DNA of 34,711 nt, taken from contig JAUTCR010000006.1 in assembly GCA_030673895.1 (NCBI GenBank), positions 1 through 34,711 of the forward strand. Direction: 5' to 3'. The notes beneath the pieces are model-generated. The model saw nothing but the letters and a program-made list of their open reading frames with translations, was not told the DNA's origin and made no database searches. Shown in pieces: positions 1 through 15,918 of this stretch (position 1 is its first letter; every line of letters starts with the position of its first letter). The DNA is from Verrucomicrobiota bacterium JB023 (GTDB lineage Bacteria > Verrucomicrobiota > Verrucomicrobiia > Verrucomicrobiales > Akkermansiaceae). The position numbers were made by a program, and so were the translations under genes.

Positions 1-69
1 TGGCGGACGGTGCTCGTCCTGCTCGGGCTTTCTCTTCTTGGCGCGCTCATCCTCTTCTTCACCTCATGA
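1..69 (+). CDS. C-terminal end of a membrane protein (partial)
   Basis: The open frame entering from the left edge gives 22 residues and a TGA stop. Apart from a short WRT start it is almost entirely hydrophobic (LVLLGLSLLGALILFF), so it is the last membrane helix of a protein whose body lies outside the window. Its stop overlaps the ATG of the PepSY gene in an ATGA junction, which indicates one operon with translational coupling. Small membrane proteins often precede PepSY-type iron-regulated proteins, but this one cannot be named from 22 residues. Confidence 0.6.
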   Translation, partial: WRTVLVLLGLSLLGALILFFTS

Positions 70-1568
70 ATGCGAAAAAGCGTAATCGCTTCTGGCAGCT
101 GCACTCTCTCCTCGGGATCACGCTTGGGCTGCCGCTTTTTGTCATCTTCCTCGCGGGCACGCTCGCTCTCTTCGAGCCCGAGGCCATCAATTGGACCCAG
201 CCTCAATTCGATGGCTCCACGCCAGCAGAGAACCCCTTGAACCCGGTGCTCAACGAGCTGCTCGCCAAGCATCCTGGCACGGACGAGCTCTCGGTGGTGC
301 TCGCCTCGGACAGGCATCCAGTCACAGATGTCTATCTCGAGGAGGATCATCATCCTACCCACTACTGGATCGATCCCCGGGACCTGACGGTCAGCGAGGC
401 CACGGGGCATGAGGCCGACCTCTTCCACTTCTTCGTCGATCTCCACTACTTCGAGTTTCTTCCCTATGGCATCCAAATCTCCGGAGCGATTGCCGCCCTC
501 TTCTTTGCCATCATCCTCAGCGGGCTGGTCTATCAGTGGCGAACAATGCGACAGGACCTGAAACTCAAGAACCTCTCGCTGAAGGGAGCCAGCCGGTGGA
601 AGAAGGTCCACCGCTTCACCTCCCTCTTCACCCTGCCATTCCAAATTGCCTACTCGGTGACGGGGGCCTCACTGGCTCTCGGGCTCTTTCTGGCCGCACC
701 GGCGGTGAGTGTCTTCTTCGATGGCGATCAGGCTGCGCTTAATGAGACGCTCTTCCCCGAGCACATGGCGATGGCGGAGCCTGTCCATGAGGAGCCGACC
801 TATCCCGTTGATGAGGCTCTCGCCCTGGCGAGTGCCCACTGGGGGCCCGGCGTCGAACCTCTCATCGTCCACATTGCCCGCGAGGAGGCCCACGATGATC
901 ACCCCGCCTCGCACACGATCCTAGTTCAAGGGAAAGAGAGAGGGCTGCACTTCGTAGGCACCTCCTCGCTGACCCTCGATGAGGACCTTAACATTCTCCA
1001 CGACCAGACTCCGACCTCCCACTTGGGCCCGATGATGATTGAGGCCTTGGTTAATGTCCACTTCGCCACCTTCAATGGCTTTCTCATCAAGGTCCTCTTC
1101 GCCCTGCTCGGGCTCATTGTCACCCTCTCCATCGCGGCCGGAGTTTACATCCTCGTGCAGCGGAGGCGGCAAGGAGCGGAGCGGGATAGCCGCATGACCA
1201 AATTCCTCGTCACCACCACGCACTGGCTTCTCGGAGGCCTCCCTCTCGCGTGTGCGCTTTCCCTGCACGCGGCCCAGCTCAGCCCGGGTCTTCCGGTCGT
1301 GCTCTTCTGGATTGTTTTGGTGGCCGCCCTGCCGCTGACTCTTCTTCTCAAGGACGGGCTTGGCAAGGTCACGACGGCATCTGCGGTGGCCTTCTCTCTC
1401 CTTCCCCTCGCCTTCCTCATCGCGCAGAGAGAAAGCCCGCTACAAGTCGGCAATACCCATGCGGTAATGGTAAGCTTCTTCAACTTGTTCTTCCTCCTTA
1501 TGGGCATCGCCATCTGGCAGCTGGTGCGTCAGATCAAGGAGAATGAACTAACAGCCAAGGCGAGGTGA
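66..1568 (+). CDS. PepSY-associated TM helix protein (iron-regulated membrane protein family)
   Basis: This 500-residue inner-membrane protein has the layout of the PepSY_TM/PiuB family. An N-terminal helix at about residues 13-36 is followed by a periplasmic PepSY-like stretch. A second helix lies near 137-157, then the conserved RWKKVHRFTSLFTLPFQ segment at about 177-193 leading into helix three. A second periplasmic domain follows, then a helix near 340-365 and three to four helices in the last 110 residues. The central conserved His and the HHPTHYWIDP segment fit the family. Members are commonly iron-repressed and sit beside siderophore receptors; some are thought to reduce ferric siderophores. 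Here it converges on a TonB-dependent receptor, which supports an iron role. The start is the ATG that overlaps the preceding stop. Molecular function is inference. Confidence 0.85.
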   Translation: MNAKKRNRFWQLHSLLGITLGLPLFVIFLAGTLALFEPEAINWTQPQFDGSTPAENPLNPVLNELLAKHPGTDELSVVLASDRHPVTDVYLEEDHHPTHYWIDPRDLTVSEATGHEADLFHFFVDLHYFEFLPYGIQISGAIAALFFAIILSGLVYQWRTMRQDLKLKNLSLKGASRWKKVHRFTSLFTLPFQIAYSVTGASLALGLFLAAPAVSVFFDGDQAALNETLFPEHMAMAEPVHEEPTYPVDEALALASAHWGPGVEPLIVHIAREEAHDDHPASHTILVQGKERGLHFVGTSSLTLDEDLNILHDQTPTSHLGPMMIEALVNVHFATFNGFLIKVLFALLGLIVTLSIAAGVYILVQRRRQGAERDSRMTKFLVTTTHWLLGGLPLACALSLHAAQLSPGLPVVLFWIVLVAALPLTLLLKDGLGKVTTASAVAFSLLPLAFLIAQRESPLQVGNTHAVMVSFFNLFFLLMGIAIWQLVRQIKENELTAKAR

Positions 1569-1605
1569 CCTCGCTCAACGTTTCGTAGTCGAGAGAGCGA
1601 GGATC

Positions 1606-1631
1606 AAAAAAACCGGCGAGGTCCGCCGGTT
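1606..1631 (-). terminator. Intrinsic terminator for the minus-strand iron operon
   Basis: An 8-bp perfect stem (1611-1618 with 1624-1631, AACCGGCG/CGCCGGTT) encloses a 5-nt loop. Read on the minus strand it is followed directly by a run of Ts (complement of the A-run 1606-1612), the standard intrinsic form. On the plus strand only GCTTTGCC follows, so it suits the minus-strand receptor better, although it may also stop the PepSY transcript. It lies about 230 bases past the receptor stop codon. Confidence 0.7.
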
Positions 1632-1857
1632 GCTTTGCCTGGTTATCGGAAGGCGAACCGCCTACCGAATTGGGTTATTAAGGTGAGGGCTTCCTTTGCG
1701 AATCATCAGATAACTTTGGGAAAGATACTGTGCATTCCTTCCCGATGGCTCCGCCATTTGTTAGACGCCTGTCCCGCCTGGAGGTCTTGCCCACCAGCCC
1801 ACCTTCGTGGTGGGCCAATGGGAACAAGGGAAGAACGGTCGGAAGCTGCCGGAGAAG
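1632..1857. other. Non-coding gap between convergent genes, with one hairpin
   Basis: I see no convincing gene in these 226 bases between the PepSY gene and the end of the receptor gene. The only structure is a 7-bp inverted repeat at 1797-1815 (GCCCACC, loop TTCGT, GGTGGGC) without a T-run on either side. It would form part of the 3' untranslated end of the receptor mRNA. Confidence 0.5.
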
Positions 1858-4014
1858 TTAGAAACTGTAGGTCGCGACCACGTTGACCGAGCGGTCTTGA
1901 CCAAGGAAGGCGTTGGTCACATCCGTGCCAAGAAGTTCCGAGGTCTCCGTGGTCTGAATGTATTGCCGGTCGAAGAGGTTGGAGACATTCAGCTGGATAT
2001 CAAAGTCTTCCCACTGATAGCCGACCATCGCGTCCATCAGGGTGTAAGACTCCGTCTTGATGGCATCGCGGCCGTCCCAGCGGTCGCCGGTGTAGCGCAC
2101 GCCCAGACCCGCCCGGAAGTTTTCCAAGGGCCCAGCTAGTGGCTTGTAGGTCAACCAAGCCGACGCCTGATGCTCCGGCACCCCGGAGAGGCGGGGAGAG
2201 CCCTCGATATCATTATTCTCGGTATCCAGATAAGTGTAGGCCGTCTGGATGGCGAAGTCCCCCATGCGCTGCTGGTAGGAGAACTCAGCCCCCTGGGTAT
2301 CGACGCTGGATTGCTCCTGGCTCAAGGCACCCGAGCCGATCACGCGGTTGTCCTCCTTGATGTCGAAGACGGAGGCCACCACGAGGGTCTCCTCATTGGG
2401 CATCCACTTCACCCCGAGTTCATGCTGGGTGCCGGTCTTGGGCTTGAAGGCCTCACCGGTGAAATCATTGATGCCCTGCGGCTCAAAGGACTCAGCATAC
2501 GAATAGTAAGGAGAAATCCCGTAGGCCGCCTGATACATCACGCCCGCGTCGAAGGTCCAGTTGTCCTGCTTGTCGGTCGCGAAGTTCGTGGACTCGAGGC
2601 TGTAATCATCGAAGCGGGTGCCCATCGTGACGATGAGGTTATTCCACTCAACGCGATTGCTCAGATAGACGCCAAAGAGCTCCTCGGTGAACTCATCCAG
2701 CTCGGTGCGGTCGGGCAGAGCGACGGCCATGGCTCCGTAGTTGGGATTGGTGAAGTCGAGGAAGCCGCCGTAGGCGTAGTTGAGACCGAAGAGGCCGGGA
2801 TTGGCCGGCAAGGTGTAGCGCTCCCTCTCGGAACGAGTGGCATCGATGCCGAACTGGACGTTGTGCTTCACGTCCGCAGTCTCGAACTTGGCATTCAGAA
2901 CCACGTTCCCCGAAAAGACATCCGTCTCGTGGTCGGAACCGTAGAGCAAGCGATGGAAACTGCCCTCGGGCAAGGGTGCGATGAAAGCATTACCAATCGC
3001 GGGAGGCACGATGGTGTGCTCAATGTAATCGGCAGATGACTTCAGGTAGCGAAGCGTCGAGTTGACGCTGAAGATGTCGTTGATCTGATGCTCGAGGAGG
3101 AAGGTGACACTCGTTTGTTCGGTATCATATCGATCGAGACTCGGCTCGCCGGCATAGAGCTCGTTCCTCAGGGTGAAGCCATCGATTTGCGCGGCCTCGT
3201 AGGGATAGAACTGGAGGGACGGGCGGCTGTCATTCTCCTGATGGTGGAAGAGGAAGCTCAGGGAAGTGTCCTCTGTGGGCTGCCAGGTGATGGAGGGTGA
3301 GATGAACCAGGAATCATCGTTCACGAAGTCGACATAAGTCTCGGACTCCCGATAGTAGCCGACGAAGCGCAGGAAGACCGTTTCGGCTTCGTTGACCGCC
3401 ATATTGTAATCGAGGCCAAACTGCATGCGGTCCTCCGTTCCGTAGCCTGCCATGATTTCGTTTTCGACGCCGGGTCCGGCAATCTTGGACGAGGTGTTGA
3501 CCGTGCCGCCCACCGAGCCACGGCCGAAGAGGAGAGAGGCAGGCCCCTTGACGAAGTCAACCTGCTCGACCGCGTAGGCTTCCTGCGGGGTGTTGTTGTA
3601 GAAGTTGAAATTGTACTGCAGACCATCGCGATAATTCAGCGTGCTCTGCCCCCGCATGCGGATGAAGTCCTGGCGATTGTCCAAGCCATAGTAGCCGCTC
3701 TGCACGCCGGAGAGATAGCGGGCTGCTTCTTCGAGGTTTTGCGCGCCGCGCTCGGTGAATTCCTCGCGCGTCACCGATTCCACGCCGCGCGGGGTCTCGA
3801 AGATTGTGTAAGGCAACTTGCCGCCCAAGGCCGGTGAAGGGTTAATCACCGGATCGGAGGCCGGCTCTTCCCCGCTCTCGCGCTCTGAGGTGACCAAAGT
3901 CGGGTCGAGGGTGAAGTCTCCCGAGTTCGTGGTCTGGGAAAGACCAACCTGCCCTAACAAAAGCCCTGTTGTCAGGCAGGTTGGAAAAATCAATGCGTGT
4001 GACTTAGCAATCAT
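1858..4014 (-). CDS. TonB-dependent siderophore receptor
   Basis: This 718-residue outer-membrane protein starts with a signal peptide (about 1-26). A plug domain follows, containing the typical TonB-receptor segments PYTIFETPRGVESVT (69-83), FIRMRGQ and FVKGPASLLFGRGSVGGTVN (about 155-174). The remainder is a long beta-barrel region with alternating aromatic strands. The barrel ends in a typical C-terminal strand, VNVVATYSF, with terminal Phe. The order and the VEQVDFVKGPAS plug motif fit the siderophore-receptor (FhuA/FoxA-like) subgroup rather than the SusC subgroup; the ligand cannot be told, and haem is possible given the neighbours. It is the last gene of a minus-strand run, 91 bases after the NADH dehydrogenase. 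The start codon is preceded by a pyrimidine-rich stretch, as in many genes here. Confidence 0.92.
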   Translation of the reverse strand: MIAKSHALIFPTCLTTGLLLGQVGLSQTTNSGDFTLDPTLVTSERESGEEPASDPVINPSPALGGKLPYTIFETPRGVESVTREEFTERGAQNLEEAARYLSGVQSGYYGLDNRQDFIRMRGQSTLNYRDGLQYNFNFYNNTPQEAYAVEQVDFVKGPASLLFGRGSVGGTVNTSSKIAGPGVENEIMAGYGTEDRMQFGLDYNMAVNEAETVFLRFVGYYRESETYVDFVNDDSWFISPSITWQPTEDTSLSFLFHHQENDSRPSLQFYPYEAAQIDGFTLRNELYAGEPSLDRYDTEQTSVTFLLEHQINDIFSVNSTLRYLKSSADYIEHTIVPPAIGNAFIAPLPEGSFHRLLYGSDHETDVFSGNVVLNAKFETADVKHNVQFGIDATRSERERYTLPANPGLFGLNYAYGGFLDFTNPNYGAMAVALPDRTELDEFTEELFGVYLSNRVEWNNLIVTMGTRFDDYSLESTNFATDKQDNWTFDAGVMYQAAYGISPYYSYAESFEPQGINDFTGEAFKPKTGTQHELGVKWMPNEETLVVASVFDIKEDNRVIGSGALSQEQSSVDTQGAEFSYQQRMGDFAIQTAYTYLDTENNDIEGSPRLSGVPEHQASAWLTYKPLAGPLENFRAGLGVRYTGDRWDGRDAIKTESYTLMDAMVGYQWEDFDIQLNVSNLFDRQYIQTTETSELLGTDVTNAFLGQDRSVNVVATYSF

Positions 4015-4072
4015 GGAAGGCGCGAAAGGTAGGCCAAAGCCCCCCTCGCGCAGTAACGCTCAATTGCCATTC

Positions 4073-4084
4073 TTTAGCGCTAAA
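4073..4084. promoter_or_regulatory. Perfect palindrome upstream of the receptor gene
   Basis: TTTAGCGCTAAA is a perfect 12-bp palindrome in the 91-base gap upstream of the receptor start (4014). The related half TCTTTAGCGC recurs 38 bases away at 4109-4118, over the end of the NADH dehydrogenase gene. The placement suits an operator or mRNA hairpin for the receptor. It does not match the classical Fur box, and the regulator is unknown. Confidence 0.25.
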
Positions 4085-4105
4085 TTGACAAATGACGCCC
4101 GATTA

Positions 4106-5440
4106 TCACTCTTTAGCGCCATCTTCTCCCGCTGGCTTTTTGCCATCACCGCGGATGGCATCAGGGACTTCGCCCTCCGAGCTGGCCGTCGTGAAAACCC
4201 GCGTGCCTGGCACGTTCTTCACGTAGGCCCAGAACCAGTGAATGAGGACACCGAGCTTGTTCCGGAAGTCGACGAGGAAGAGAACGTGGACGAAGAGCCA
4301 CATCATCCACCCGAGCCAGCCCTTAATCTTGGAGTCCTTCACCTCGACCACGGCAGAGCCCTTGCTCACAATGGCCATCTTACCCTTGTCGTTGTACTTG
4401 AAGGGATGGTTCCTCTTTTGATCGAGCGGGGTCGTCGCAATCAGCCGGGCCACGTGCTCGCCCGCCTGCACCGCTGCAGGTGCCACGCCGGGCACGCGCT
4501 CGCCGTCACTGACCATCGAGGCACAGTCACCAATGACGAAGGCCGAAGGATAGCCAGGAATCGAAAGGTCAGGGTCCACCTTCACCAGGCCCGGTCCGAC
4601 CAGTTCGGGAGCGGGCTTGATCTGGCGCGTCAAGGCCGTGGCCTGGACTCCGGCCGCCCAGATGATGGTAGCGGCCTCCAGCTCTTCCTTGCCATCGAGG
4701 ATCACCTTGCCGGGCTGGATATCCGAGACCAGCGAACCGGTGCGGACCTCGACGCCAAGCTTGGTCAATTGCTCCTCGGTGTATTGGCTCAGCTCAGGAC
4801 TATACGGGGTCAGGAGACGATCCTGCCCCTCAACGAGAATGATCTTCTGGCGATTCGTATCGAAGCGGCGGAAGTGCCGCTTCATGTTCCGCTTCACCAA
4901 ATCACAGAAGGCACCTGCCAGCTCGACACCCGTGGGACCACCTCCTACGATAACGACCGTAGCAAGCTTCTCCTGCTCCGGTCCGCTGCATTGATCAGCA
5001 AACTCGAGATTCCGCAGGACATGCTTACGGATCCCAATCGCATCATTGAGCGACTTGAGCTCATGGACGTGCTCGGCCCAATGATCATTGCCAAAGAAAG
5101 AAGTCCGCGCCCCGGTGGCCATCACGAGGACGTCGTAGTCCAAGACATTGCCCGAAGCCAATGCGACCGTCTTCTCGTCCAGATCGATTCCGCAAGCTTC
5201 ATCATAGAGGGTTTCCACCCAATCCTTGTCCCCGAACATTCCCCGCAAGGAGCGGGCGATATCCGGCGCGGTCAAGGTGGCCGTGGCCACTTGATAAAGC
5301 AGGGGCTGGAACAAGTGGTGATTCCTCCGGTCAATCAGGGTCACCCGAAATTGTTCTCTCCTCGACAACTGCTTCGCACAGGCCAAGCCTCCGAATCCTC
5401 CGCCAATAATGACGACATGTTTGACTGTTTCTGAACTCAT
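4106..5440 (-). CDS. ndh: NAD(P)/FAD-dependent oxidoreductase, type II NADH dehydrogenase family
   Basis: The 444-residue protein has the two dinucleotide-binding folds of NDH-2: FAD-binding VVIIGGGFGGLA at residues 9-20 and NADH-binding VVIVGGGPTGVELAG at about 162-176. The ATG loop DVLVMATGARTSFFG lies near 103-117 and the second FAD motif AFVIGDCA around 300. A hydrophobic C-terminal stretch (about 375-410) would anchor it to the membrane. NDH-2 passes electrons from NADH to quinone without pumping protons. Its ATG overlaps the flavodoxin stop by 4 bases (ATGA), so the two are co-translated. In this iron/haem operon it may instead, or also, reduce the flavodoxin or a ferric substrate; that is inference. 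Confidence 0.88.
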   Translation of the reverse strand: MSSETVKHVVIIGGGFGGLACAKQLSRREQFRVTLIDRRNHHLFQPLLYQVATATLTAPDIARSLRGMFGDKDWVETLYDEACGIDLDEKTVALASGNVLDYDVLVMATGARTSFFGNDHWAEHVHELKSLNDAIGIRKHVLRNLEFADQCSGPEQEKLATVVIVGGGPTGVELAGAFCDLVKRNMKRHFRRFDTNRQKIILVEGQDRLLTPYSPELSQYTEEQLTKLGVEVRTGSLVSDIQPGKVILDGKEELEAATIIWAAGVQATALTRQIKPAPELVGPGLVKVDPDLSIPGYPSAFVIGDCASMVSDGERVPGVAPAAVQAGEHVARLIATTPLDQKRNHPFKYNDKGKMAIVSKGSAVVEVKDSKIKGWLGWMMWLFVHVLFLVDFRNKLGVLIHWFWAYVKNVPGTRVFTTASSEGEVPDAIRGDGKKPAGEDGAKE

Positions 5441-5934
5441 CTCTCAACGTCGGCACCCAGCGCAACCGCCTGCCGGCTTGAGAATAACGCGAGAAGCTGA
5501 TCCCGCCAACTCTCAACCTCGTCCTCATACCAGACGTCGCAATCGACGCGGGGCAGCATCGGCTTACCCCCGTGGCGAAGCAGCTCACGCTCAAGAATCT
5601 TTCCGCATTCGCAAAATTGATCATAGCCAGTGTCGCCCAGGCCAAGCACGGCGAAGGGCATCCCGCCCAATCCCATGGGCTCAGCCTGACTAAGATTGTC
5701 AAAGAATGGCACCGCATCATCAGGTGGCTCGCCATCCCCCCAAGTGCTGACGACACCCAGGATGCAATCAGCCTCCTCGAGGACAGTGATATCCTCGTGC
5801 AGGGAAAGGTCGAGCAATCGGACCGGCAGAGACCGATCACACAGGTGATCATGAAGTTCCGCAGCCACGTCCTCCGCATTGCCCGTCATACTCGCAAAGA
5901 CGATCAGTATCTCCTTCATCTCTCGAAATGGCAT
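5437..5934 (-). CDS. Flavodoxin-like FMN protein
   Basis: About 160-165 residues, a single flavodoxin domain. The FMN phosphate loop is FASMTGNAEDVA (13-24), the isoalloxazine loops are VSTWGDGEPPDDA and GLGDTGYDQFCECG, all like the FMN domain of sulfite reductase flavoproteins. It is a small one-electron carrier with no reductase domain of its own. The listed start forms a TAATG junction with the stop of the HemS-like gene. An internal ATG at 5919 (MKEILIVFAS) is a natural flavodoxin start and equally possible. It sits between a HemS-like gene and an NDH-2-like gene, so it may carry electrons between them (inference). Confidence 0.88.
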   Translation of the reverse strand: MPFREMKEILIVFASMTGNAEDVAAELHDHLCDRSLPVRLLDLSLHEDITVLEEADCILGVVSTWGDGEPPDDAVPFFDNLSQAEPMGLGGMPFAVLGLGDTGYDQFCECGKILERELLRHGGKPMLPRVDCDVWYEDEVESWRDQLLALFSSRQAVALGADVER

Positions 5935-6749
5935 TAGTCGCAGAGTGGCTCAAGACGCTCGAACGAACGCAGCTCGACGCCCTCGGGCTGCACCAATGAT
6001 AGAGCGGGGCGATTATCCTTGGTGAAGAAGGAGGCAATGTGCCGGTCACCCGAGCGCACCAAACGAGCGTGATGATAGCCATCCGGGTGGATGGTCATGT
6101 GATTCCCGCCACTCGAGAAGGCCAACCAACATCCTGCGGGTTGTTCGGCCTCTGCCCTGAGGGAGTCCCAGGTGGATTGACTTCGGTGCGGCAGGATGAG
6201 GCCCAGTTCGGCACCTTTCTCGATCGCCTCCCGTTGGATTCTTTTGAGTAGAGGAAGAAAGTTTGTCTTCCGGCCCTCGGAAGCCCGGAGAGGACGGCAA
6301 TGCATCACATTGGCTCGACGGAGATGGAGGATATCCCAAGCATCTCCCTCACCTACGATGAAGCTCTCTAACATCTTCCTGTCCTTCTTCGCGTGATGCG
6401 CATCCCGATAGCAGAGCTTGAAGAGCCCGCGACCCTGCTCGTCCGCAATCTCGAGGCAAGGCAGCATCTTCCCGAAGCGTTCTTCCTCATAGAGCCAAGC
6501 TTCCGACCAATCGGCCAGACTCAAGGTGACGCCACGAAATCCCCGGCTCTGCACCGCATGCCGGGAAACGATCTCCACCGAGGGGAAGGCCCCGGCCTGG
6601 CAATGAATGGCATGCGTTCCGCGATACACCGTCGCGGAGGTGCGCAAGCGGGGTAACAGGGTGACCAGCTTCTCCCAGTCGGGTCTCAGCCGGAAGACTC
6701 GTCCGGCCGACTGGGGCTGAAAAGGTTCGATATCAGATTCAGGGTGCAT
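5934..6749 (-). CDS. HemS/ChuX-like haem-utilisation protein
   Basis: The protein (271 residues) resembles the two-repeat HemS/ChuS family. Its first half has the order expected for that domain: LVTLLPRLRTSATVYRG, HAIHCQAGAFPSVEI, a strand-rich part, a W/aromatic-Glu segment (DWSEAWLYEEE), then LEIADEQGRGLFKLCYRD, which corresponds to the FDAQGDAVHKVYL region. The second half contains GCWLAFSSGGNHMTIHPDG, comparable to the GNRGCIQIHTG segment. Family members bind haem in the cytoplasm and release iron from it. It is somewhat short for HemS (usually near 345). I chose ATG 6749; a GTG at 6791 would add 14 residues. It heads the operon with flavodoxin, NDH-2 and a TonB receptor, in keeping with haem or siderophore use. 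The assignment rests on recalled patterns only. Confidence 0.6.
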   Translation of the reverse strand: MHPESDIEPFQPQSAGRVFRLRPDWEKLVTLLPRLRTSATVYRGTHAIHCQAGAFPSVEIVSRHAVQSRGFRGVTLSLADWSEAWLYEEERFGKMLPCLEIADEQGRGLFKLCYRDAHHAKKDRKMLESFIVGEGDAWDILHLRRANVMHCRPLRASEGRKTNFLPLLKRIQREAIEKGAELGLILPHRSQSTWDSLRAEAEQPAGCWLAFSSGGNHMTIHPDGYHHARLVRSGDRHIASFFTKDNRPALSLVQPEGVELRSFERLEPLCD

Positions 6750-6876
6750 CAGTTTGTTAGCGTTAGATTCATTCTTGAGAAATGATGCCACCTCTCGCGC
6801 ACTCCGACTATCGGGAGAATGTTATCTCTTGATGGTCGATTGCTACTTCGCGCATCCGCAATGGAAGGGTGAAAGA

Positions 6877-6904
6877 AAACACCCGGCACGAGGGCCGGGT
6901 GTTT
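6877..6904 (-). terminator. Intrinsic terminator between the two HemS-like genes
   Basis: A perfect 11-bp stem (6877-6887 with 6894-6904, AAACACCCGGC/GCCGGGTGTTT) surrounds a 6-nt loop. On the minus strand the stem runs into TTTTCTTTC, giving a proper terminator for the gene ending at 6968. The plus strand has only TTTAATT. It separates the gene at 6968-7978 from the haem operon that begins near 6749. Confidence 0.75.
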
Positions 6905-6967
6905 AATTGGAGCTCGAGTTGCGAGGGGTCGAGCCCTGGGCAGGAAAAGGAAAGAAAGTGTGAGGCC

Positions 6968-7978
6968 CTACCCCTCAAGATTGGAATAGGAACCTTCGCC
7001 ACCCTGCGACGATCCCCAGTAGCCACTTCGCGGATCAGCAAGAAAGCCCTCCCAACGCTCCGCGACCAATTTCTCTGGAGCCGAAAGCGTGGCCACCACC
7101 TCGCCATGGGTATTGAGAAGATGCACATCCAGATTCGCCACTCCGTCAACCTGACTCCGCCCCGTGACGAAGGCATGCAGAGACCGCGCCTTGACCGTTA
7201 CCTCCGCATCGTCACCTCCGGCGATGATGGAGCCCGCCCTGATATGCACGCGGGTAGGCAGCACACTGCTCAAGAAACTCGCGCCCGGCCGACGCACCCC
7301 GACGAGCAGCCTGATCCTGCGGTCCAAGGCATCGGTAAGCATCCGGGTGATTGGGTTGAAGTGACTCCGCATCGCCCGCCGCTCTCCCCGCTCCACGCAG
7401 CAGGGGCACATGGGGGGCTCGATCAGCTTCCGCTCCTCGCGACGCTTGGCTGTCTCGACGACCATCTCATAGCCAAACGTGCAGGAGAAATTATTGAAGA
7501 CCCTCAGGTCGCTGCATTCGAGCGTCGACATTGCCAGTCGGCAGCGGCGGCTTGCGAAGTCGATTTCCAGAGCAGGCACATCCCTCGCCGAGGGCTCGAC
7601 GGCATGAATCCCGCTCACCTCTTGGGTGGCGATGCTCAGGCTATGCTGCGGGACGAAAAATCGGCCCGACCGCTGGAGAAGGGAGGAGGAGAGATCGATC
7701 ACACTGCGGAATGACACCGTGGGATCATCAAAGTGGACACCCATCTTCCCCAAGACCGCCAATCCGCGCCAGAGCCCCGGACTGGGCGGCTCGAATTCAT
7801 GCAGCCACCGTCCCTCTTGCTCACCCCGGGGGGTGGAGCCCGGGCGAGTAACCCTCCAGCTTTCTCCTCTCCGAGCGTCGCCAGCAACGCCTCGCGGAGG
7901 CATTGGCAATGACGTCTCGCGAAAGCCCCCACCCTTGCTCGGGCCAGACCGTGCCGCCTTCTTGTCCGATTCGTTCAT
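6968..7978 (-). CDS. Hypothetical protein, possibly HemS/ChuX-like
   Basis: The frame gives 336 residues from ATG 7978 (MNESDKK). The first 60 residues are Gly/Arg/Pro-rich and look unlike folded protein; the rest has alternating beta-type hydrophobic patterns. Two segments recall the HemS domain: SIATQEVSGIHAVEP with ALEIDFAS in the first half, and SLHAFVTGRSQ with ANLDVHLLNTHGEVVATLS in the second, the latter fitting the end of a HemS repeat. A CPCC motif lies between them. It is separated from the haem operon by a terminator and divergent from the nitrate transporter. The overlapping minus frame at 7699-7932 encodes REALLATLGEEKAG, so the true N-terminus may lie there through a frameshift. 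Coding is likely; function is uncertain. Confidence 0.45.
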   Translation of the reverse strand: MNESDKKAARSGPSKGGGFRETSLPMPPRGVAGDARRGESWRVTRPGSTPRGEQEGRWLHEFEPPSPGLWRGLAVLGKMGVHFDDPTVSFRSVIDLSSSLLQRSGRFFVPQHSLSIATQEVSGIHAVEPSARDVPALEIDFASRRCRLAMSTLECSDLRVFNNFSCTFGYEMVVETAKRREERKLIEPPMCPCCVERGERRAMRSHFNPITRMLTDALDRRIRLLVGVRRPGASFLSSVLPTRVHIRAGSIIAGGDDAEVTVKARSLHAFVTGRSQVDGVANLDVHLLNTHGEVVATLSAPEKLVAERWEGFLADPRSGYWGSSQGGEGSYSNLEG

Positions 7979-8114
7979 ACCGGCACCGTGGCGGAAAACC
8001 ACCTGCCCGAGCTGCCGCCCGATTGCCGATTTCTAGCGAGCGATTGCCCTCCCAGCCGGCTGAACCGCTTCTGTAGCCCTCTCTTACCCGCCGCTATTTT
8101 CTCAATTCGAGCCG

Positions 8115-8136
8115 ATTCATGAGCGCCATTCATGAA
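8115..8136. promoter_or_regulatory. Paired ATTCATGA palindromes upstream of the nitrate operon
   Basis: ATTCATGA occurs at 8115-8122 and ATTCATGAA at 8128-8136; each core, TTCATGA(A), is self-complementary. They lie about 45-65 bases upstream of the sigma-54-like promoter, where an activator site could be. They do not match the enteric NtrC consensus, and no regulator gene is in view. Confidence 0.25.
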
Positions 8137-8182
8137 AACCGACAGCCACCGTCCGCTTTTATTTATCAATCTGACTATCGGG

Positions 8183-8198
8183 TGGCACGGCTACCGCT
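8183..8198 (+). promoter_or_regulatory. Sigma-54 (RpoN)-type promoter for the nitrate importer operon
   Basis: TGGCACG-N4-CCGCT has the complete -24 element TGGCACG and the GC of the -12 element. The GG (8184-8185) and GC (8196-8197) are exactly 10 bases apart, as the sigma-54 consensus needs; the TT of the -12 element is replaced by CC. Transcription would start near 8209, leaving a leader of about 19 bases to ATG 8228. This also argues against an upstream start at 8132. Sigma-54 control is common for nitrogen assimilation genes. Confidence 0.45.
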
Positions 8199-8227
8199 CT
8201 CTTTCCCCCGAACCCTCGCTTCCCGCC

Positions 8228-9877
8228 ATGGCAGATTCCACCAAAGACAAAATCAAGTATGGCCTTCTCAAAGGCATCGATGTCAGCGGCTTCAAAGTCC
8301 TCGATCCTCCCGTGCGCCTTCTCTTCGGGGAAGAGCCACAGAAGCAAATTCGGGATATTGCCAAGTACATGCTCCTCCCCATCCTCTTCGTGCTCTGCTG
8401 CATCCTGCTCTGGAGCGTCGTGGCGCCCAATCACAAGACGCGCTCCGGCGAGGTGCCGGGCCCGAGCAAGGTGCTGACCGCCTACTCCGATAGCAAACGC
8501 TTCGAGGAGCGGCAGAAGGAAAAAGCCAGTGACTTCAAACTCGAGGGCCAGGAACGCTTGGCGATGGTCAAGGAAGTGGAAACCGAGCTGGCCAGCCTCG
8601 AGGCCAAAGCAGCTGAACTCTCAGAGGAAGCAGCCAAGATCGAGGCGCTCGCCCAAGAAAAGATGGCCGCTCGAATCGCGCCAATCCAGAGCAAGCTCGA
8701 CGCGCTCAAGGCGAAGCACAAGGCGGCAGAAGATGCCCGCGACGCACAACTCGAGGCCTTGGCCGGGGAGGCCGTCGCCGGTGAGGTCAGCTCCGACACC
8801 TTGGTCGCCTTCATCCGTGAGACGGAAGCCATCGAGGAGAAAGCGGACGCCGCCGAGGACGTCTATGAGGAGCAGCTTGAGGAGATTCGCTCCAATCCTC
8901 CCTCCGAAGTGAAGGACGCTCAATTGGCGGCCAACCGGGTCGCCGACGAGGTTCAGCATTACAAGAAGCGTCTGGCCATCCTCACCAAGGAGAACCGCAA
9001 TGTCAAAGAAGCCGAGTATCTCGCCAAGATTGCGGAAGATAAGGAACAACTCGCCGCAGCCAGCACGGCTGGGGATGTCGTCAAGGAAGCCAAGGCCATC
9101 GCGCGGAATACCGAGCGCGCGGAAGACGTCGGCAGCCAGACCTATCCCCGCACGGCCACCATCTTCTGGCAGACCAAGCGCTCTCTCGCCACCGTCTTCG
9201 TCGGCTTCATCATCGCCGCCGCCATCGCCATCCCCGTCGGCATCATGTGCGGGCTCAATCGCATCTTCATGGCCTGCATGACGCCCATCATCTCGATCTT
9301 CCGACCTGTTTCTCCCGTAGTTTGGCTCCTCATCTTCCAGATCATCATTGGCGCCTTCTTCCCCGATCCGGAGAATCATCCCCTCTTCGTCACTCTCAAT
9401 CAGGACAAATTTTTCGGATGGATTGCCAATCCCATCGCCTTCCTCGGCACGAACCCCGCCATGATTTTCTCCGCTTGCACGGTAGCGATGTGCGCCCTCT
9501 GGCCCGCCTTGGTCAATACGGCCCTCGGCGTCTCCTCGGTAGACAAGGATCACATGAATGTGGCCAAGGTTCTTCGCCTCGGCTTCTGGTCCCGCCTATT
9601 CAAGATTGTCGTTCCGGCCTCGCTGCCTCTCGTCTTCGCCGGCCTTCGCATCTCCCTCGGCGTCGGTTGGATGGTCCTCATCGCGGCCGAAGCTCTCTCC
9701 TCATCCGATGGCCTCGGCAAGTTCGTGTGGGATGAATACCAGAATGGCTCCTCCCAATCCTTCGCCAATATCATCCTCGCCTGCTTCGTGGTCGGCATCA
9801 TCGGTTTCTTCCTCGACCGCATCATGGTCTTCCTCCAGCGACTCGTCTCCTTCGATGACGGCTCGGCAACAGCGTGA
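8228..9877 (+). CDS. nrtB: NrtB-type ABC transporter permease with long coiled-coil insertion
   Basis: A 549-residue inner-membrane permease of the nitrate/sulfonate/taurine family (BPD_transp_1). Helix one is at 47-66, then the short family motif PGPSKV (77-82, LPSP-like). The usual linker is replaced by about 210 Lys/Glu/Ala-rich residues (90-300) with heptad-like periodicity. The permease core starts near 310 ([15 protein letters not shown]) and carries the EAA loop [17 protein letters not shown]. NrtB proteins are normally about 280 residues. By topology the insertion should be periplasmic. It is co-transcribed with two ATPase genes, in a cluster with nitrate and nitrite reductases, which is why nitrate is the likely substrate. 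No periplasmic binding protein is encoded nearby. The ATG follows TTCCCGCC, identical to the leader at 27122; an upstream ATG (8132) lies ahead of the promoter. Confidence 0.82.
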
Positions 9878-9897
9878 ACCAGCAACCTCTTTCTACT

Positions 9898-10797
9898 ATG
9901 TCTTTCCTCACATTGGACAACGTCTCAGTCGCCTTCGGACCGGTTGGCAATCGCACTGAGGTGCTCTCCAACATCAATCTGTCAGTCAAGGAGAACGAGT
10001 TCGTCGCCGTTATCGGCTTCTCCGGCTCGGGCAAATCGACCTTGATGAATCTCCTCTCCGGCTTGGAACCACCCACCGAGGGCAAGGTCATCATGGATGG
10101 CAAGGAGGTCACCGCACCCGGACCCGAGCGGGGGCTCATGTTTCAGAACTACTCCCTTCTCCCCTGGCTATCGGTTAATGAAAACGTCGGCCTCGCGGTG
10201 AAGACAGCCTTCCCCAAGCTCTCGAAGTCGGAGGTTGCCGACAAGGTCCACCACTACGTCAAGATGGTGAAGCTCGACCACGCGGGAGAGAAGAAGCCGC
10301 ATGAGCTCTCCGGCGGGATGCGCCAGCGCGCGTCGCTCGCGAGGACTCTCTCCCTTGATCCCCAAGTGCTCCTCCTCGATGAGCCCCTCTCCGCCCTCGA
10401 TGCCCTGACCCGTTCCGAGCTGCAGGACCAAATCCTCAACATCTGGGAAAAGGACCGCCGCACCGTGGTCATGATCACCAATGATGTCGATGAAGCCGTC
10501 CTCATGGCCGACCGCATCGTCCCCCTCACCATGGGTCCCAGGGCCACCCTCGCCGAGGACTTCGTGGTCAACATGCCCCACCCGCGTGATCGCCACACCC
10601 TCAACGACCACCCGGAATACATGCGCCTCAAGTCGGAGATCACCTCCTTCATGATGCAGCTCAACAAGGAGTCGAAGGCCTCGGCGGCCAACAAAATCGT
10701 CCCCATGCCCGACGTGCGTCCCAAGGACTTCTCCCTCCCAGTCGCCTCACCACGACTTCGGAACAAATCACCTCAACCATCATCCGCAGCATCATGA
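9898..10797 (+). CDS. nrtC: ABC transporter ATP-binding protein, NrtC-like (ATPase domain only)
   Basis: A 299-residue ABC ATPase with Walker [10 protein letters not shown] (40-48), Q-loop Gln83, signature LSGGMRQR (137-144) and Walker B VLLLDEP (157-163). The H-loop reads MITNDVDEA, so Asn195 stands where His is usual; as I recall, the same wording is typical of cyanobacterial NrtC. The segment [13 protein letters not shown] that follows also fits NrtC. Cyanobacterial NrtC carries a C-terminal binding-protein domain; this one stops after the ATPase and a short tail, so no binding domain is supplied. I prefer ATG 9898, which follows a CTCTTTCTACT stretch. A GTG at 9874 would overlap the permease stop (GTGA) and add 8 residues. 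It energises nitrate import together with the next gene. Confidence 0.85.
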
Positions 10798-11714
10798 GCC
10801 TCCAAGTCTACGAACCAGTGGAAGAGCCTAGCCTATCCAAGTTTGTCGAGATCTCGAATCTCGTTAAGGAATACCCTAATCCCTATGGAGATGACTTCCG
10901 CGTCGTTGAGAACTTCAACCTCAACATCCGGCAGGGTGAATTCATCTCCCTCATCGGCCACTCCGGTTGCGGGAAGTCCACCGTCCTCACCATGCTGGCC
11001 GGCCTCAATGAGATTTCCGATGGAGGCATCATCGTGGGTAATCGAGAGATTGACGGCCCTGGCCCTGACCGTGCCGTGGTCTTCCAAGCCCCCTGCCTGA
11101 TGCCTTGGCTCACCGCCTTCGGCAATGTCATGCTCGGCGTCAAAAGCGTCTATCCGCATGCCGATAAGGCGACCCAGACTCAAATCGTCGAGCACTCCCT
11201 CTCCGTCGTGGGTCTTGCCGATTCGATGAAAAAGTATCCCCGCGAGATGTCCGGCGGCATGCAGCAGCGTGTTGGCATCGCCCGCGCCATCGCGCTCCAG
11301 CCCAAGGTGCTTCTACTAGACGAACCCTTTGGCCGCCTCGACTCTCTCACCCGCATGGAGCTTCAGGATGTCATCATCGACATCCTTGCCCGCGAGAAAC
11401 TCACCGCCATGATCGTGACCCACGATGTGGATGAGGCCGTCTTCATGGCCGACCGCTGCGTGATGATGTCGAATGGCCCCAAGGCCACTTGCGCCGAGAT
11501 CATGGAGATCTACTTCCCCCGCCCTCGCGACCGAGAGGAAGTCTTCAATGACCCCGCCTTCTTCCAATACCGCGAGCACCTCCTCGCCTTCCTCGAGCAA
11601 CGCTCTCACATCAAGGGAGACACCCGCATCCACAATCGATCCAACCTCATCGGCTATCTCGACAAGCCCGCTCTCACCAATCTCGAAAACAAACTCTCCG
11701 TCGCCGTGGCCTAA
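10794..11714 (+). CDS. nrtD: ABC transporter ATP-binding protein, NrtD-like
   Basis: The second ATPase of the importer, 306 residues. It has Walker [10 protein letters not shown] (55-63), Q-loop Gln98, signature MSGGMQQR (152-159), Walker [13 protein letters not shown] (172-183) and an intact H-loop His210 in [15 protein letters not shown]. The two ATPases would pair as NrtC-NrtD, one with an Asn and one with a His switch residue, so they are probably not equivalent. The ATG overlaps the previous stop (ATGA), which shows coupling. The C-terminal tail of about 60 residues is family-specific. The substrate is inferred from the adjacent nitrate/nitrite reductase genes. Confidence 0.87.
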
Positions 11715-11930: not shown

Positions 11931-13703
11931 ATGACTCCCGCCTTCACACCCGAGCAAACCGCCTACCTTTCCGGCTTCATGGAAGGCTTCAAGCAAATGC
12001 AAGCTGAAGGCCTCCTCTTCCTTGGACAAAACGCCAGCGGCCAATTCACCCACGATCCCGCACAGGCCGAACCCCAGGAAGAAACCGTCCACGGAACTCC
12101 CATCGACGACCTCTCCAAGGAAGAGCGCGTCAAGTATGAGCAGAACGGCCTCGACTGCTACGACACCATTCTCGAGCGCGCCGCCGAGAACAAATTCGCT
12201 GACGGTGGTGATGTCTTTCGCTTCAAGTTCTACGGCTTCTTCTACGTCGCCCCCGCACAGGACTCCTACATGCTGCGCTGTCGCATCCCCGGCTGCGTCC
12301 TGACCGCCCACCAGCTTCGCGGGCTTGCCGAGATTTCGCGCGATTGGGGATGTGGCAACTGCGATATCACCACCCGGGGCAATATCCAGATTCGCCAGCT
12401 CATGCCGGAGTCCCTCCCCAAGGTGATGACCAAGCTCTACGACCTCGGCCTCACTGCCAAGGGCTCGGGCGCTGACAACGTGCGCAACATCACCGCCACC
12501 CCCACCACGGGATTCGATAAGGACGAACTGCTCGACGTCCTCCCCCTGGCGAAGTCGATGCACCACTACATTCTCAACAATCGCGATCTCTACGGTCTTC
12601 CTCGTAAGTTCAACATCTCCTTCGACTCCGGCGGCGCCATCTCCGTCTGTGCCGATACCAATGACATCGCCTTCTACGCCGTCCGCCTCACTGAAGAGAC
12701 CGACGGCCTCGCCCCGGGCGTTTACTTCCGCATGCAGCTCTGCGGCATCACCGGGCACAAGCAATTCGCCACCGACTCCGGCGTTCTACTTACCGCCGAG
12801 GAAACCATCCCCGTCGCTGCCGCCATTCTCCGCGTCTTCATCGAGCATGGTGACCGGACCAATCGCAAAAAAGCCCGCCTGAAATACCTCGTCGACAAGT
12901 GGGGCATCCCCAAACTCCTTGAAGAAACGGAGAAGAAGCTCACCTTTCCCCTCCGCCACCTCCCTCTCGATTCCTGCGAGGTCCCCATGCCCAAGGTCAA
13001 GCATGGCCACTACGGCATCCATAAACAAGCCGACGGACGCAACTACATCGGCGTCGTCATTCCCGTCGGTCGCACCCCCGTCGACAAGGTCGATCAGCTC
13101 TGCAAAATCGCGGAGAAGTACGGCGATGGCGACATCCGCCTCACGGTCTGGCAGAACCTACTCATCCCCAACATTCCCGACGAACATCTCGAAGAAGCCA
13201 AACTCGCCATTCTCCGCACCGGCTTCAGCTTCGATTCCACCAACATTTCCGGCGGCCTCGTCGCCTGCACGGGCAACCTCGGCTGCAAATACGCCGCCGC
13301 CAACACCAAGGGACATGCGACTCAACTCGTCGAATATCTTGAGCCCCGCGTCGAGCTCGACCAGCCCATCAATATCCACCTCACCGGCTGCAACCACTCC
13401 TGCGCCCAGCACTACATCGGTGATATCGGCATGATGGGCGTTCCGGTCAAACTGGAGTCCGGGGAGAAAGTCGAGGGCTACAACATCGTCCTCGGAGGCG
13501 GAGTGGACGACGACCAATTCGTCGCCAAGGAAGCCTGGAAGGGCATCCCATTTACCGACATCCCCCCCCTTATCGAGTCCCTTCTCAAAACGTATCTTTC
13601 CCATCGCAAGGGAACCGAATCCTTCGCACACTTCACCCGCCGCCTCGACATCGAGACCCTCCATTCCCTCATCGCGGACTCCGCCTCCGCCAAAGCAGCC
13701 TAA
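11931..13703 (+). CDS. nirA: Sirohaem nitrite reductase, NirA family
   Basis: A 590-residue nitrite/sulfite reductase with two repeated half-domains. Residues 115-157 contain the first ferredoxin-like half with the conserved GCGNCDITTRGNIQIR region. The [4Fe-4S]-sirohaem ligands are Cys446 and Cys452 (ACTGNLGC) and Cys487 and Cys491 (TGCNHSC). The enzyme reduces nitrite to ammonium with six electrons from a ferredoxin or flavodoxin in the cytoplasm. The N-terminus, FTPEQTAYLSGF (5-16), resembles that of the flavodoxin two genes on (FTPEQIGWLNGY), which suggests a common docking helix. Assignment to nitrite rather than sulfite rests on the neighbouring nitrate reductase and transporter. Repeat copies lie on both sides of the gene. 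The start is the first ATG, after CTTCCCCTC. Confidence 0.88.
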   Translation: MTPAFTPEQTAYLSGFMEGFKQMQAEGLLFLGQNASGQFTHDPAQAEPQEETVHGTPIDDLSKEERVKYEQNGLDCYDTILERAAENKFADGGDVFRFKFYGFFYVAPAQDSYMLRCRIPGCVLTAHQLRGLAEISRDWGCGNCDITTRGNIQIRQLMPESLPKVMTKLYDLGLTAKGSGADNVRNITATPTTGFDKDELLDVLPLAKSMHHYILNNRDLYGLPRKFNISFDSGGAISVCADTNDIAFYAVRLTEETDGLAPGVYFRMQLCGITGHKQFATDSGVLLTAEETIPVAAAILRVFIEHGDRTNRKKARLKYLVDKWGIPKLLEETEKKLTFPLRHLPLDSCEVPMPKVKHGHYGIHKQADGRNYIGVVIPVGRTPVDKVDQLCKIAEKYGDGDIRLTVWQNLLIPNIPDEHLEEAKLAILRTGFSFDSTNISGGLVACTGNLGCKYAAANTKGHATQLVEYLEPRVELDQPINIHLTGCNHSCAQHYIGDIGMMGVPVKLESGEKVEGYNIVLGGGVDDDQFVAKEAWKGIPFTDIPPLIESLLKTYLSHRKGTESFAHFTRRLDIETLHSLIADSASAKAA

Positions 13704-13780: not shown

Positions 13781-14365
13781 ATGATCAACCTCCCACCATC
13801 CGCGCCTTTCACGCCCGAACAAATCGGTTGGCTCAACGGCTACCTGGCCGCTCGCATGCAGGCGACCGGGGCTCCCGCACCGGGACCACCGACCGAGGCC
13901 ACTCCTCCCTCCGGGGTCCCCCTCACCATCCTATGGGGATCACAAACCGGAAATTCCGAATCCCTCGCCAAGAAGGCGGCCAAGACGCTCACCGGCCAGG
14001 GCCACCAAGTCACCGTCACCGACATGGCTGATGCCGACCCCGCCGCCCTCTCCGCTATCGAAAATCTCCTCATCATCACCTCGACGTATGGAGATGGCGA
14101 ACCACCTGACAACGCCGCGGACCTTCACGAAGCCTTGACTGGCGACTGCGACCTCAAGCTCGACAAGACGAGCTACGCGGTTCTCGGTCTTGGCGATTCC
14201 GAATACCCCGACTTCAATCAGTGCGCCAAGGACTTCGATAACGCGCTAGAAAAACTGGGGGCCACCCGTCTTTGCGAACGAATCGAGAGCGATGTCGATT
14301 TTGATGATCCTTTCGCCACTTGGCTCAGCCAAGTCACCGAAAGCCTCGCCAAGCTGGAGTCCTGA
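13781..14365 (+). CDS. Flavodoxin (sulfite-reductase-type FMN domain)
   Basis: A 194-residue protein with one FMN domain. The phosphate loop is WGSQTGNSESLA (52-63), followed by ITSTYGDGEPPDNA and the third loop VLGLGDSEYPDFNQCAKDFD. It resembles the FMN half of CysJ but lacks the FAD/NADPH-binding half, so it needs a separate reductase. Residues 10-21, FTPEQIGWLNGY, match the N-terminus of the nitrite reductase; this kind of segment precedes the FMN domain in CysJ-type proteins. The most likely role is electron donor to NirA. It follows nirA by 77 bases that contain repeat copy B, and precedes the ferredoxin/DmsC fusion gene by 26 bases. The ATG follows CTCCCTCTC. Confidence 0.88.
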   Translation: MINLPPSAPFTPEQIGWLNGYLAARMQATGAPAPGPPTEATPPSGVPLTILWGSQTGNSESLAKKAAKTLTGQGHQVTVTDMADADPAALSAIENLLIITSTYGDGEPPDNAADLHEALTGDCDLKLDKTSYAVLGLGDSEYPDFNQCAKDFDNALEKLGATRLCERIESDVDFDDPFATWLSQVTESLAKLES

Positions 14366-14391
14366 TTGCCAAGCGACCCAACCCTGCGACC

Positions 14392-15918
14392 ATGTCCGGC
14401 CTCCCTCCAGAGAAGACCTTGATCGACGACCTCCTCGCTGATCAGAAGAAGCTCTTCACCCCCGTAGCGGATTTCGCGGATCGTCACGAGCGCGAGCCGG
14501 ACCTCGCCGGGCACTACCGCAATCTCATCCCCCTCTCCAAGCCAGGCCCCGGCGAGCAATACGCCTTCGAGGTGGCCTTGGACAAATGCACTTCCTGCAA
14601 AGCCTGTGTAGCTGCCTGCCACAGCCAGAATGGGCTCGACGAAAATGAATCCTGGCGCGACGTCGGTCTCCTCCTGGGAGGCGACGAAGCCCCCGGATGG
14701 CAGCAGACCATTACGACTGCCTGTCACCACTGTGCCGACCCCGAGTGCCTCAATGGCTGCCCCGTGCAAGCTTACGAGAAATCCAGTGAAACAGGCATCG
14801 TCCGTCACCTCGATGACCAATGCATCGGGTGCTCCTACTGCATCTTCAAGTGTCCCTTCGACGTCCCGAAATACTCCAAGAAGCGCGGCATTGTTCGGAA
14901 ATGTGACATGTGCCACGATCGGCTTGCTGAAGGCGAGGCACCGGCCTGCGTTCAAGCCTGCCCGACCGAGGCGATTAAGATTGTTAAGGTCAATGTGGCT
15001 GAGAAAGCGAAGCTCGGCTCCCGTGACATGGGCTGGCTCAATGGCGCTCCACCGGCCTCCATCACCCAGCCTACCACCCGTTACACCGGCCGCGAGGTTC
15101 CCACCTCCGCGCATGCCGCGGACCACGACGATCTCACCCCCGAGCACGCCCATTGGCCCTTGGTCATCATGCTCACCCTCACCCAGGCCGCCGTCGGCCT
15201 TTTCCTAGGCTCCCTCTTTCTTTCACCAGAGACCCGCGCCCACCTCACCTTCTCCGCCCTCTCACTGGCCTTGTTCAGCATCGGCCTCGTCGCTGCCACC
15301 TTGCATCTGGGGCAACCTCTCAAAGCCTGGCGCTTCTTCCTCGGCCTACGCACCAGCTGGCTCTCCCGCGAACTGCTCGCTTTCACTATCCTCGGCGGCT
15401 TCCTCACCGCGCCCCTTCTCAATCACGTCCCTCTGCCACCCCCACTGGGCTTTCTACCCTCCATCATTAATCACCCCGCCTTCTTGGCCTTCTCAGCGGG
15501 CACCGCCCTCGCCGCCGTTTTCACCAGTGTCAAGATCTACCAAACGACCAACCGCCGCCTATGGAAGTCCGCCATCACCTTCCCTCGCTTCTACGGCACG
15601 GTCACCCTCTTTATTCTCCTCACCTTGGCCACGATATCTCCCGTAGCATCCTTTGGGTTTGTCCTGGCCATCATTGGCAAGCTGGCCCTGGATCTCATTC
15701 AACTCCGTGTCCCCTCATTGGCGAGAGAGCGAACCATCGTCACCACCGCCCTCCGCCCGATCTCCCTGCTCAGAGTAGTAGGAGTCCTCGGTGCCGCGTT
15801 GCTGCTCCCTTTCTCACCCTTGGCCGCGCTTCCGGTTCTCCTTCTCTCCGAACTGGCCGAACGCACTCTTTACTTCAAGGCGGTGCGTCCCCTCAAGATG
15901 CCGGGCTTTTTGCCTTAA
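14392..15918 (+). CDS. Four-cluster ferredoxin fused to DmsC-type quinol-oxidising membrane anchor
   Basis: A 508-residue fusion. Residues 60-200 form a DmsB-like ferredoxin with sixteen cysteines in four sets: 66/69/72/76, 111/114/119/123, 144/147/150/154 and 171/174/186/190. From about 255 to 505 there are roughly eight hydrophobic helices of the DmsC/NrfD-like anchor type. In DMSO reductase these are two subunits that take electrons from menaquinol and pass them to the molybdenum subunit. Here the fusion lies 15 bases upstream of nasA, so it probably feeds NasA. NasA has no export signal, and a cytoplasmic ferredoxin part would be needed; that orientation is inference. The start is ATG 14392, since the frame runs back into the flavodoxin gene. 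Confidence 0.85.
   Translation: MSGLPPEKTLIDDLLADQKKLFTPVADFADRHEREPDLAGHYRNLIPLSKPGPGEQYAFEVALDKCTSCKACVAACHSQNGLDENESWRDVGLLLGGDEAPGWQQTITTACHHCADPECLNGCPVQAYEKSSETGIVRHLDDQCIGCSYCIFKCPFDVPKYSKKRGIVRKCDMCHDRLAEGEAPACVQACPTEAIKIVKVNVAEKAKLGSRDMGWLNGAPPASITQPTTRYTGREVPTSAHAADHDDLTPEHAHWPLVIMLTLTQAAVGLFLGSLFLSPETRAHLTFSALSLALFSIGLVAATLHLGQPLKAWRFFLGLRTSWLSRELLAFTILGGFLTAPLLNHVPLPPPLGFLPSIINHPAFLAFSAGTALAAVFTSVKIYQTTNRRLWKSAITFPRFYGTVTLFILLTLATISPVASFGFVLAIIGKLALDLIQLRVPSLARERTIVTTALRPISLLRVVGVLGAALLLPFSPLAALPVLLLSELAERTLYFKAVRPLKMPGFLP

Follow-up and report, generated by a model that had tools for sequence, protein, structure and literature searches.

In Proteobacteria, nitrate assimilation is under the control of NtrC and sigma-54, nasF of Klebsiella being an example. 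Sigma-54 promoters, with the full consensus TGGCACG-N4-TTGCW, stay closed unless an AAA+ activator acts on them, and such activators normally choose their promoters by DNA binding; the enhancer site of NtrC is TGCAC-N7-GTGCA. NasS works with NasT in Proteobacteria. Among the LysR-type proteins, Nac of Klebsiella is a nitrogen regulator made from a sigma-54 promoter and associated with a 15-bp dyad; it activates sigma-70 promoters and has been reported to repress its own sigma-54 promoter. NtcB, a LysR-type regulator of nitrate assimilation in cyanobacteria, is not tied to sigma-54. The LysR-type box has the form of a 15-bp dyad, ATnn-N7-nnAT with T-N11-A, as in the sites of OxyR (ATAG-N7-CTAT) and BenM (ATAC-N7-GTAT). 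To our knowledge, no LysR-type protein has been described that opens a sigma-54 promoter.

The sections of PMC12316311 considered here describe an enrichment of sigma-54 at genes for ammonia permeases and nitrate transporters in Pseudomonadota, and mention Verrucomicrobiota with motility as the subject. For a verrucomicrobial methanotroph, the part of PMC5623727 drawn upon reports a rise of nitrate genes in response to nitrate and includes four ntrC-like genes in its lists; promoters are not among the content of that part. CtcC of Chlamydia, an NtrC-family activator from the PVC bacteria, is presented in the relevant part of PMC7482065 as composed of regulatory and ATPase parts with no DNA-binding domain. 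Among the papers listed in the literature searches, none was seen that describes sigma-54 nitrate promoters with a LysR-type regulator in the bacteria studied here, or an arrangement of the kind proposed below.

The nitrate operon and its -24/-12 element

The window, i.e., the whole stretch of 34,711 nucleotides that was analysed, is the complete contig C6 of the 4.03 Mb genome G000, whose nearest named relatives are Akkermansiaceae and Roseibacillus and which is therefore most likely verrucomicrobial. A nitrate uptake and reduction operon begins at position 8228, with all genes on the forward strand. It encodes a nitrate ABC permease (8228-9877; TIGR01183 ntrB, below its cut-off), two nitrate ABC transporter ATP-binding proteins (9874-10797 and 10794-11714, both over the cut-off of TIGR01184), a NirA-family nitrite reductase (11931-13703; NF007126, over cut-off), a flavodoxin-domain protein (13781-14365), an Fe-S/DmsC-type protein (14392-15918, its start picked by eye inside the ORF 14320-15918), and a molybdopterin oxidoreductase, probably the assimilatory nitrate reductase (15934-18153). 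The Pfam match of the permease is confined to residues 334-536, and matches to close homologs span its whole length; by eye, approximately 250 residues N-terminal to the transporter domain appear coiled-coil-like. Elsewhere in the window, at 66-6791, a PepSY-like membrane protein, a TonB receptor, an NADH dehydrogenase, and a flavodoxin were recognised by eye as a cluster, which also holds a ChuX/HutX-like protein (24.1 bits, just under cut-off) and perhaps serves haem or iron uptake.

For comparison, 145 genomes of the family were searched; including that of the window itself, 35 permease matches over the full length were obtained. Named genomes contributed 43 loci. Upstreams shorter than 120 nt, hits beginning past residue 60, and hits below 26% identity were left out of the upstream table. 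The start codon at 8228, on which the earlier note had settled, is supported by an exactly aligned ATG in 34 of 56 other loci. Because of this alignment, and because the promoter would otherwise fall within the gene, a permease start at 8132 (ORF of 581 aa) was rejected.

The element TGGCACG-GCTA-CCGC (TGGCACGGCTACCGC) is located at 8183-8197 on the forward strand. Its GG and GC are 10 apart and 30 nt separate its C from the ATG, which confirms the earlier observation of TGGCACG with GG-N10-GC spacing 30 bases ahead of the start. The -24 half is exact; the -12 half reads CC where the consensus has TT. In relatives, 53 sigma-54 sites mostly read TTGGCA(C/T)(G/A)-N5-TGCT. Within the window, the -24/-12 pattern matches once versus 0.29 expected, and since 24 of 100 shuffles also reach at least one match, the match taken alone is no evidence.

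Sigma-54 control, as proposed in the earlier note, gains support from the genome and from its relatives. The suggested scan for rpoN located the gene in G000 (PF04552, E 3.7e-58; TIGR02395 over cut-off). Among the 19 permease upstreams (protein identity of at least 60%, window included), 17 carry a site with a score of at least 11.5 within 90 nt of the start, compared to a mean of 0.3 and a largest value of 2 in shuffles; the two upstreams from which the site is absent belong to L015 and L018. With high confidence, we predict that 8183-8197 is the sigma-54 promoter from which the operon for nitrate transport and reduction is transcribed. Judged from the position of the site, transcription would start at 8208-8210 on the forward strand, about 11-13 nt past the -12 GC. 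No sigma-70 promoter was found within 7900-8400 and no Rfam family in 6700-8400. A terminator-like hairpin at 8181-8195 overlaps the -24/-12 site, one of two in the stretch versus 0.6 expected.

Good sigma-54 sites in G000 also precede amtB (TTGGCATGCCCGTTGCT) and a glutamine synthetase (CTGGCATGCCTTCTGCT). At nasS, nirA, and 4 of 11 counted porin upstreams, the -12 GC is followed by the ATG after only 7-16 nt, so that nearly leaderless transcripts are predicted at these genes.

The upstream dyad and its spacing from sigma-54 sites

ATTCATGA occurs at 8115-8122 and 8128-8135, with a third copy in the window at 64-71 on the minus strand. Where the earlier note saw two palindromic boxes, both copies are indeed present; ATTCATGA itself is no palindrome, however, and the copies form the two arms of a single dyad, TTCATGAGCGCCATTCATGAA (TTCATGA-N7-TCATGAA; 8116-8136, not assigned to a strand). 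Its core ATGA-N7-TCAT at 8119-8133 (ATGAGCGCCATTCAT) fits the 15-bp ATnn-N7-nnAT form with T-N11-A and is proposed as a LysR-type box. From the end of the core to the TGG of the -24 element there are 49 nt. The core pattern is found in 48 of 100 shuffled windows and is not significant alone.

The assignment of the boxes as NtrC enhancers is not supported, as the dyad has the LysR form and no NtrC-type site with up to two mismatches lies within 700 bp. At this tolerance, TGCAC-N7-GTGCA has three matches in the window versus 12.6 expected by chance, the nearest at 7392-7408.

In relatives, the exact ATGA-N7-TCAT box is found at a gap of at most 65 from the site in 13 of the 19 permease upstreams. 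Planctomycete nrtA upstreams (n = 10; loci L046-L063) have a sigma-54 site in eight cases, e.g., TTGGTACGCATGTTGCT, and the exact dyad within 300 nt in none of the ten. Searching G000 for the dyad followed by 36-60 bases and a -24/-12 site revealed three matches, as opposed to none with the reversed control: the window, a porin adjoining lysR, where the span is likewise 79 bp, and a gene on contig C58. The last match (G000:C58:32445-32516) lies upstream of a protein of more than 480 aa.

A pattern with shorter gaps gave 34 matches in 30 of the 145 family genomes and none in the control. Thirty of these matches were fetched as loci, and one more was added later (L217). Eighteen of the 30 precede amtB (13 loci), a glutamine synthetase (at L142), permease, nasA, nirA, or lysR. 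For the other 12 no link to a nitrogen gene was found, which points either to a wider regulon or to chance matches being commoner than the control shows. The boxes, which the earlier note suggested seeking at other nitrogen genes of the genome, stand in relatives upstream of amtB, glutamine synthetase, nasA, and nirA.

A set of 60 distinct exact boxes was compiled within 200 nt of nasS, permease, porin, nrtA, lysR, and nirA, with each promoter entering once and the pattern-fetched loci (L133-L162) excluded. Downstream of the box, a sigma-54 site scoring at least 11.5 follows in 41 of the 60 cases, versus a mean of 1.6 and a largest value of 7 in shuffles; as elsewhere in our box and promoter counts, related promoters are included. 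This enrichment, together with the conservation of the promoter, argues against the view that the boxes and the -24/-12 match arose by chance, a view which the frequency of either pattern in shuffled windows would favour and which we consider barely credible.

The distance between box and site is not arbitrary. Among 40 gaps of at most 70 bp, 34 deviate by no more than 2.5 bp from 7+10.5n, and R at a period of 10.5 bp is 0.70; gaps of 6, 28, 38-40, and 48-50 are the most frequent. For the 23 distinct gene-and-gap pairs the nominal p is 1e-4, which overstates the significance, given the relatedness of the promoters and the fact that these data were also the ones in which the register was first noticed. 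Gaps of 35, 45, and 65 are off the helical series, and so are those of 3 and 13 that occur upstream of some amtB genes. A register kept across several turns favours contact or bending.

The box does not accompany every nitrogen promoter. From 37 places with amtB, 30 became loci, and these 30 upstreams from 20 genomes include 22 with a site scoring at least 11.5 but only three with a dyad paired to the site. The dyad is therefore best understood as an added control rather than as a general feature of nitrogen promoters. Two simpler descriptions were dropped along the way: a box limited to nitrate genes, once the dyad had been found at amtB, and a box on every nitrogen promoter, in view of the amtB counts. 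At divergent amtB pairs (L145-L148, L150), a single common dyad has a sigma-54 site on either side, with gaps of 7 and 3.

Candidate regulators: the lysR gene and the AAA+ activators

The gene of the LysR-type protein of G000 is located at C37:7171-8079, divergent from nasS-nrtA. In many relatives nrtA precedes the permease, whereas in G000 it lies on C37 behind the NasS-like gene. The lysR-nasS intergenic region contains ATGAGCACCATTCAT and the sigma-54-like TTGGTACGGCTCCCGC, the latter ahead of nasS-nrtA, a combination that closely resembles the box and site of the window. A further dyad, ATGAATGGTGCTCAT, shares bases with the -24/-12 site of the lysR gene, the placement to be expected if the protein represses its own gene. 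Besides this locus (L090, G000:C37), lysR stands opposite in strand to the permease and before nasS or nrtA at 14 loci; L041 has its lysR elsewhere.

Across 45 lysR loci (L034 and L104 being the same gene, and L128 left out as too short), the exact dyad is present at 25, often on the start codon, and missing from 20, with 0.36 in shuffles; within one mismatch it is found at 38 of the 45, with 6.1 in shuffles. That the dyad marks lysR genes also speaks against its reading as an NtrC enhancer. The lysR gene of L132 carries the dyad as well, and no divergent ORF was seen nearby. From these comparisons of sequence, the two boxes of the window would form one operator, probably bound by the LysR-type protein of G000:C37:7171-8079. 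For this protein, the Nac model is not among the best 25 of 55 NCBIfam matches, and none of the 25 is over its cut-off.

A LysR match at 1e-40 was obtained in 75 of the 145 genomes. Five genomes of genus g11 (G010, G023, G033, G050, G058) have none at this threshold and nevertheless keep the box 3-4 nt before the sigma-54 site at amtB, which implies that either another protein or a diverged LysR-type protein reads it there. The former possibility may be extended to a nitrogen regulator of another family that reads the dyad everywhere, with lysR as just one of its targets; the box at the glutamine synthetase of L142 would suit this explanation too. No candidate for such a regulator was found, however, and the box has the LysR form and co-occurs with lysR, so that we judge a regulator of this kind to be quite improbable and retain the LysR-type protein as the favoured reader.

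In L090 (G000:C37), the NasS-like and LysR-type genes together occupy 4655-8079, and the two proteins may represent a new sensor pair. ANTAR, the domain of NasT-type antitermination, has no match in G000; the control genomes are silent as well, and the result does not establish its absence.

Six strong PF00158 proteins among 13 matches represent the AAA+ activators of G000. As sigma-54 needs such an activator and six strong ones are present, a DNA-bound activator may still operate at this promoter. Two groups, termed alpha and beta, are common across nine further genomes.

Alpha, the NtrC-like group, is present in G000 (contig C22) and in all eight further genomes with a match to the box pattern. 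In G028 (genus g3) no alpha protein was found, and this genome has neither a box-pattern match nor an amtB match at 1e-30; as support, this single absence is thin evidence. The alpha ortholog L165 has ntrC as its best NCBIfam model, scoring below cut-off, with a match that ends at 424 of 463. All eight complete alpha orthologs have a receiver and an AAA+ domain and none has HTH_8 over its cut-off (22), with weak scores in L163 (17.9 bits) and L169 (12.7); this count excludes the G000 copy, which runs off the contig end and whose own C-terminus is not seen. Given the lack of HTH_8 over cut-off and the end of the ntrC match, alpha looks like an NtrC relative without a working DNA-binding end, a further point against the boxes as NtrC enhancers. 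The NtrC-like protein of C22, acting from solution, is in our opinion the foremost candidate for the AAA+ activator, with slightly less than an even chance of being the right one.

Beta (contig C25), in contrast to alpha, has a full HTH_8 in G000 in addition to receiver and AAA+ domains, and each of the nine further genomes compared has a beta protein. Should the dyad instead be an enhancer, with a changed half-site and an NtrC-family activator binding it via a Fis-type HTH, beta could be its best candidate reader. The 4-N7-4 plan is shared with the NtrC site, the helical register would suit contact between an NtrC-family protein and the polymerase, and in G033 and G058, where the box is kept at amtB, alpha and beta are the only activators at the 1e-30 cut. 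On the other hand, some boxes end 3-7 nt before the -24 element and are closer to it than usual enhancers, lysR genes (including that of L132) go together with the box, beta also occurs in G028 with its missing amtB match, and the best NCBIfam model of beta is AtoC rather than NtrC. An enhancer read by beta or a similar protein is hence unlikely in our estimation.

Proposed mechanism and comparison with known systems

Taken as a whole, a sigma-54 promoter served by an NtrC-like activator from solution and by a LysR-type protein at the box is an arrangement that we consider rather likely from the genome comparisons. Alpha would sense nitrogen shortage and supply the ATP-driven step from solution. 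A nitrate or nitrite signal, perhaps relayed by the NasS-like protein, would reach the LysR-type protein at the box, which would permit or block transcription from its position at the dyad and limit its own gene. The operon would then depend on both inputs, the shortage via alpha and the nitrate or nitrite signal via the LysR-type protein. More tentatively, and with doubts prevailing, we suggest that enhancer function is split in Verrucomicrobiota: a LysR-type protein, bound upstream of sigma-54 promoters and mostly in helical register, may select promoters on behalf of an NtrC-like activator whose own DNA-binding domain has been lost, and may thereby stand in for the enhancer-binding half. 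If true, this would amount to a divided enhancer and would outline a network of nitrogen control in Akkermansiaceae and their relatives that is open to testing.

Compared with the NtrC/sigma-54 system of Proteobacteria, the locus agrees in that nitrate transport genes are preceded by a predicted sigma-54 promoter and amtB is predicted to be under the same sigma factor. It differs in having a dyad of LysR form instead of a nearby NtrC-type site, an NtrC-like protein without the DNA-binding end, and a NasS-like gene beside lysR. Alpha resembles CtcC in build; CtcC is tied to developmental conversion in the part of PMC7482065 considered, whereas alpha is proposed for nitrogen control. With NtcB the locus shares a LysR-type protein as the candidate regulator of nitrate assimilation, here together with predicted sigma-54 promoters. 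Finally, the LysR-type candidate regulator is like Klebsiella Nac in having its own sigma-54 site and a 15-bp dyad; unlike in the case of Nac, the box is mostly in register with the sigma-54 promoters of its targets.
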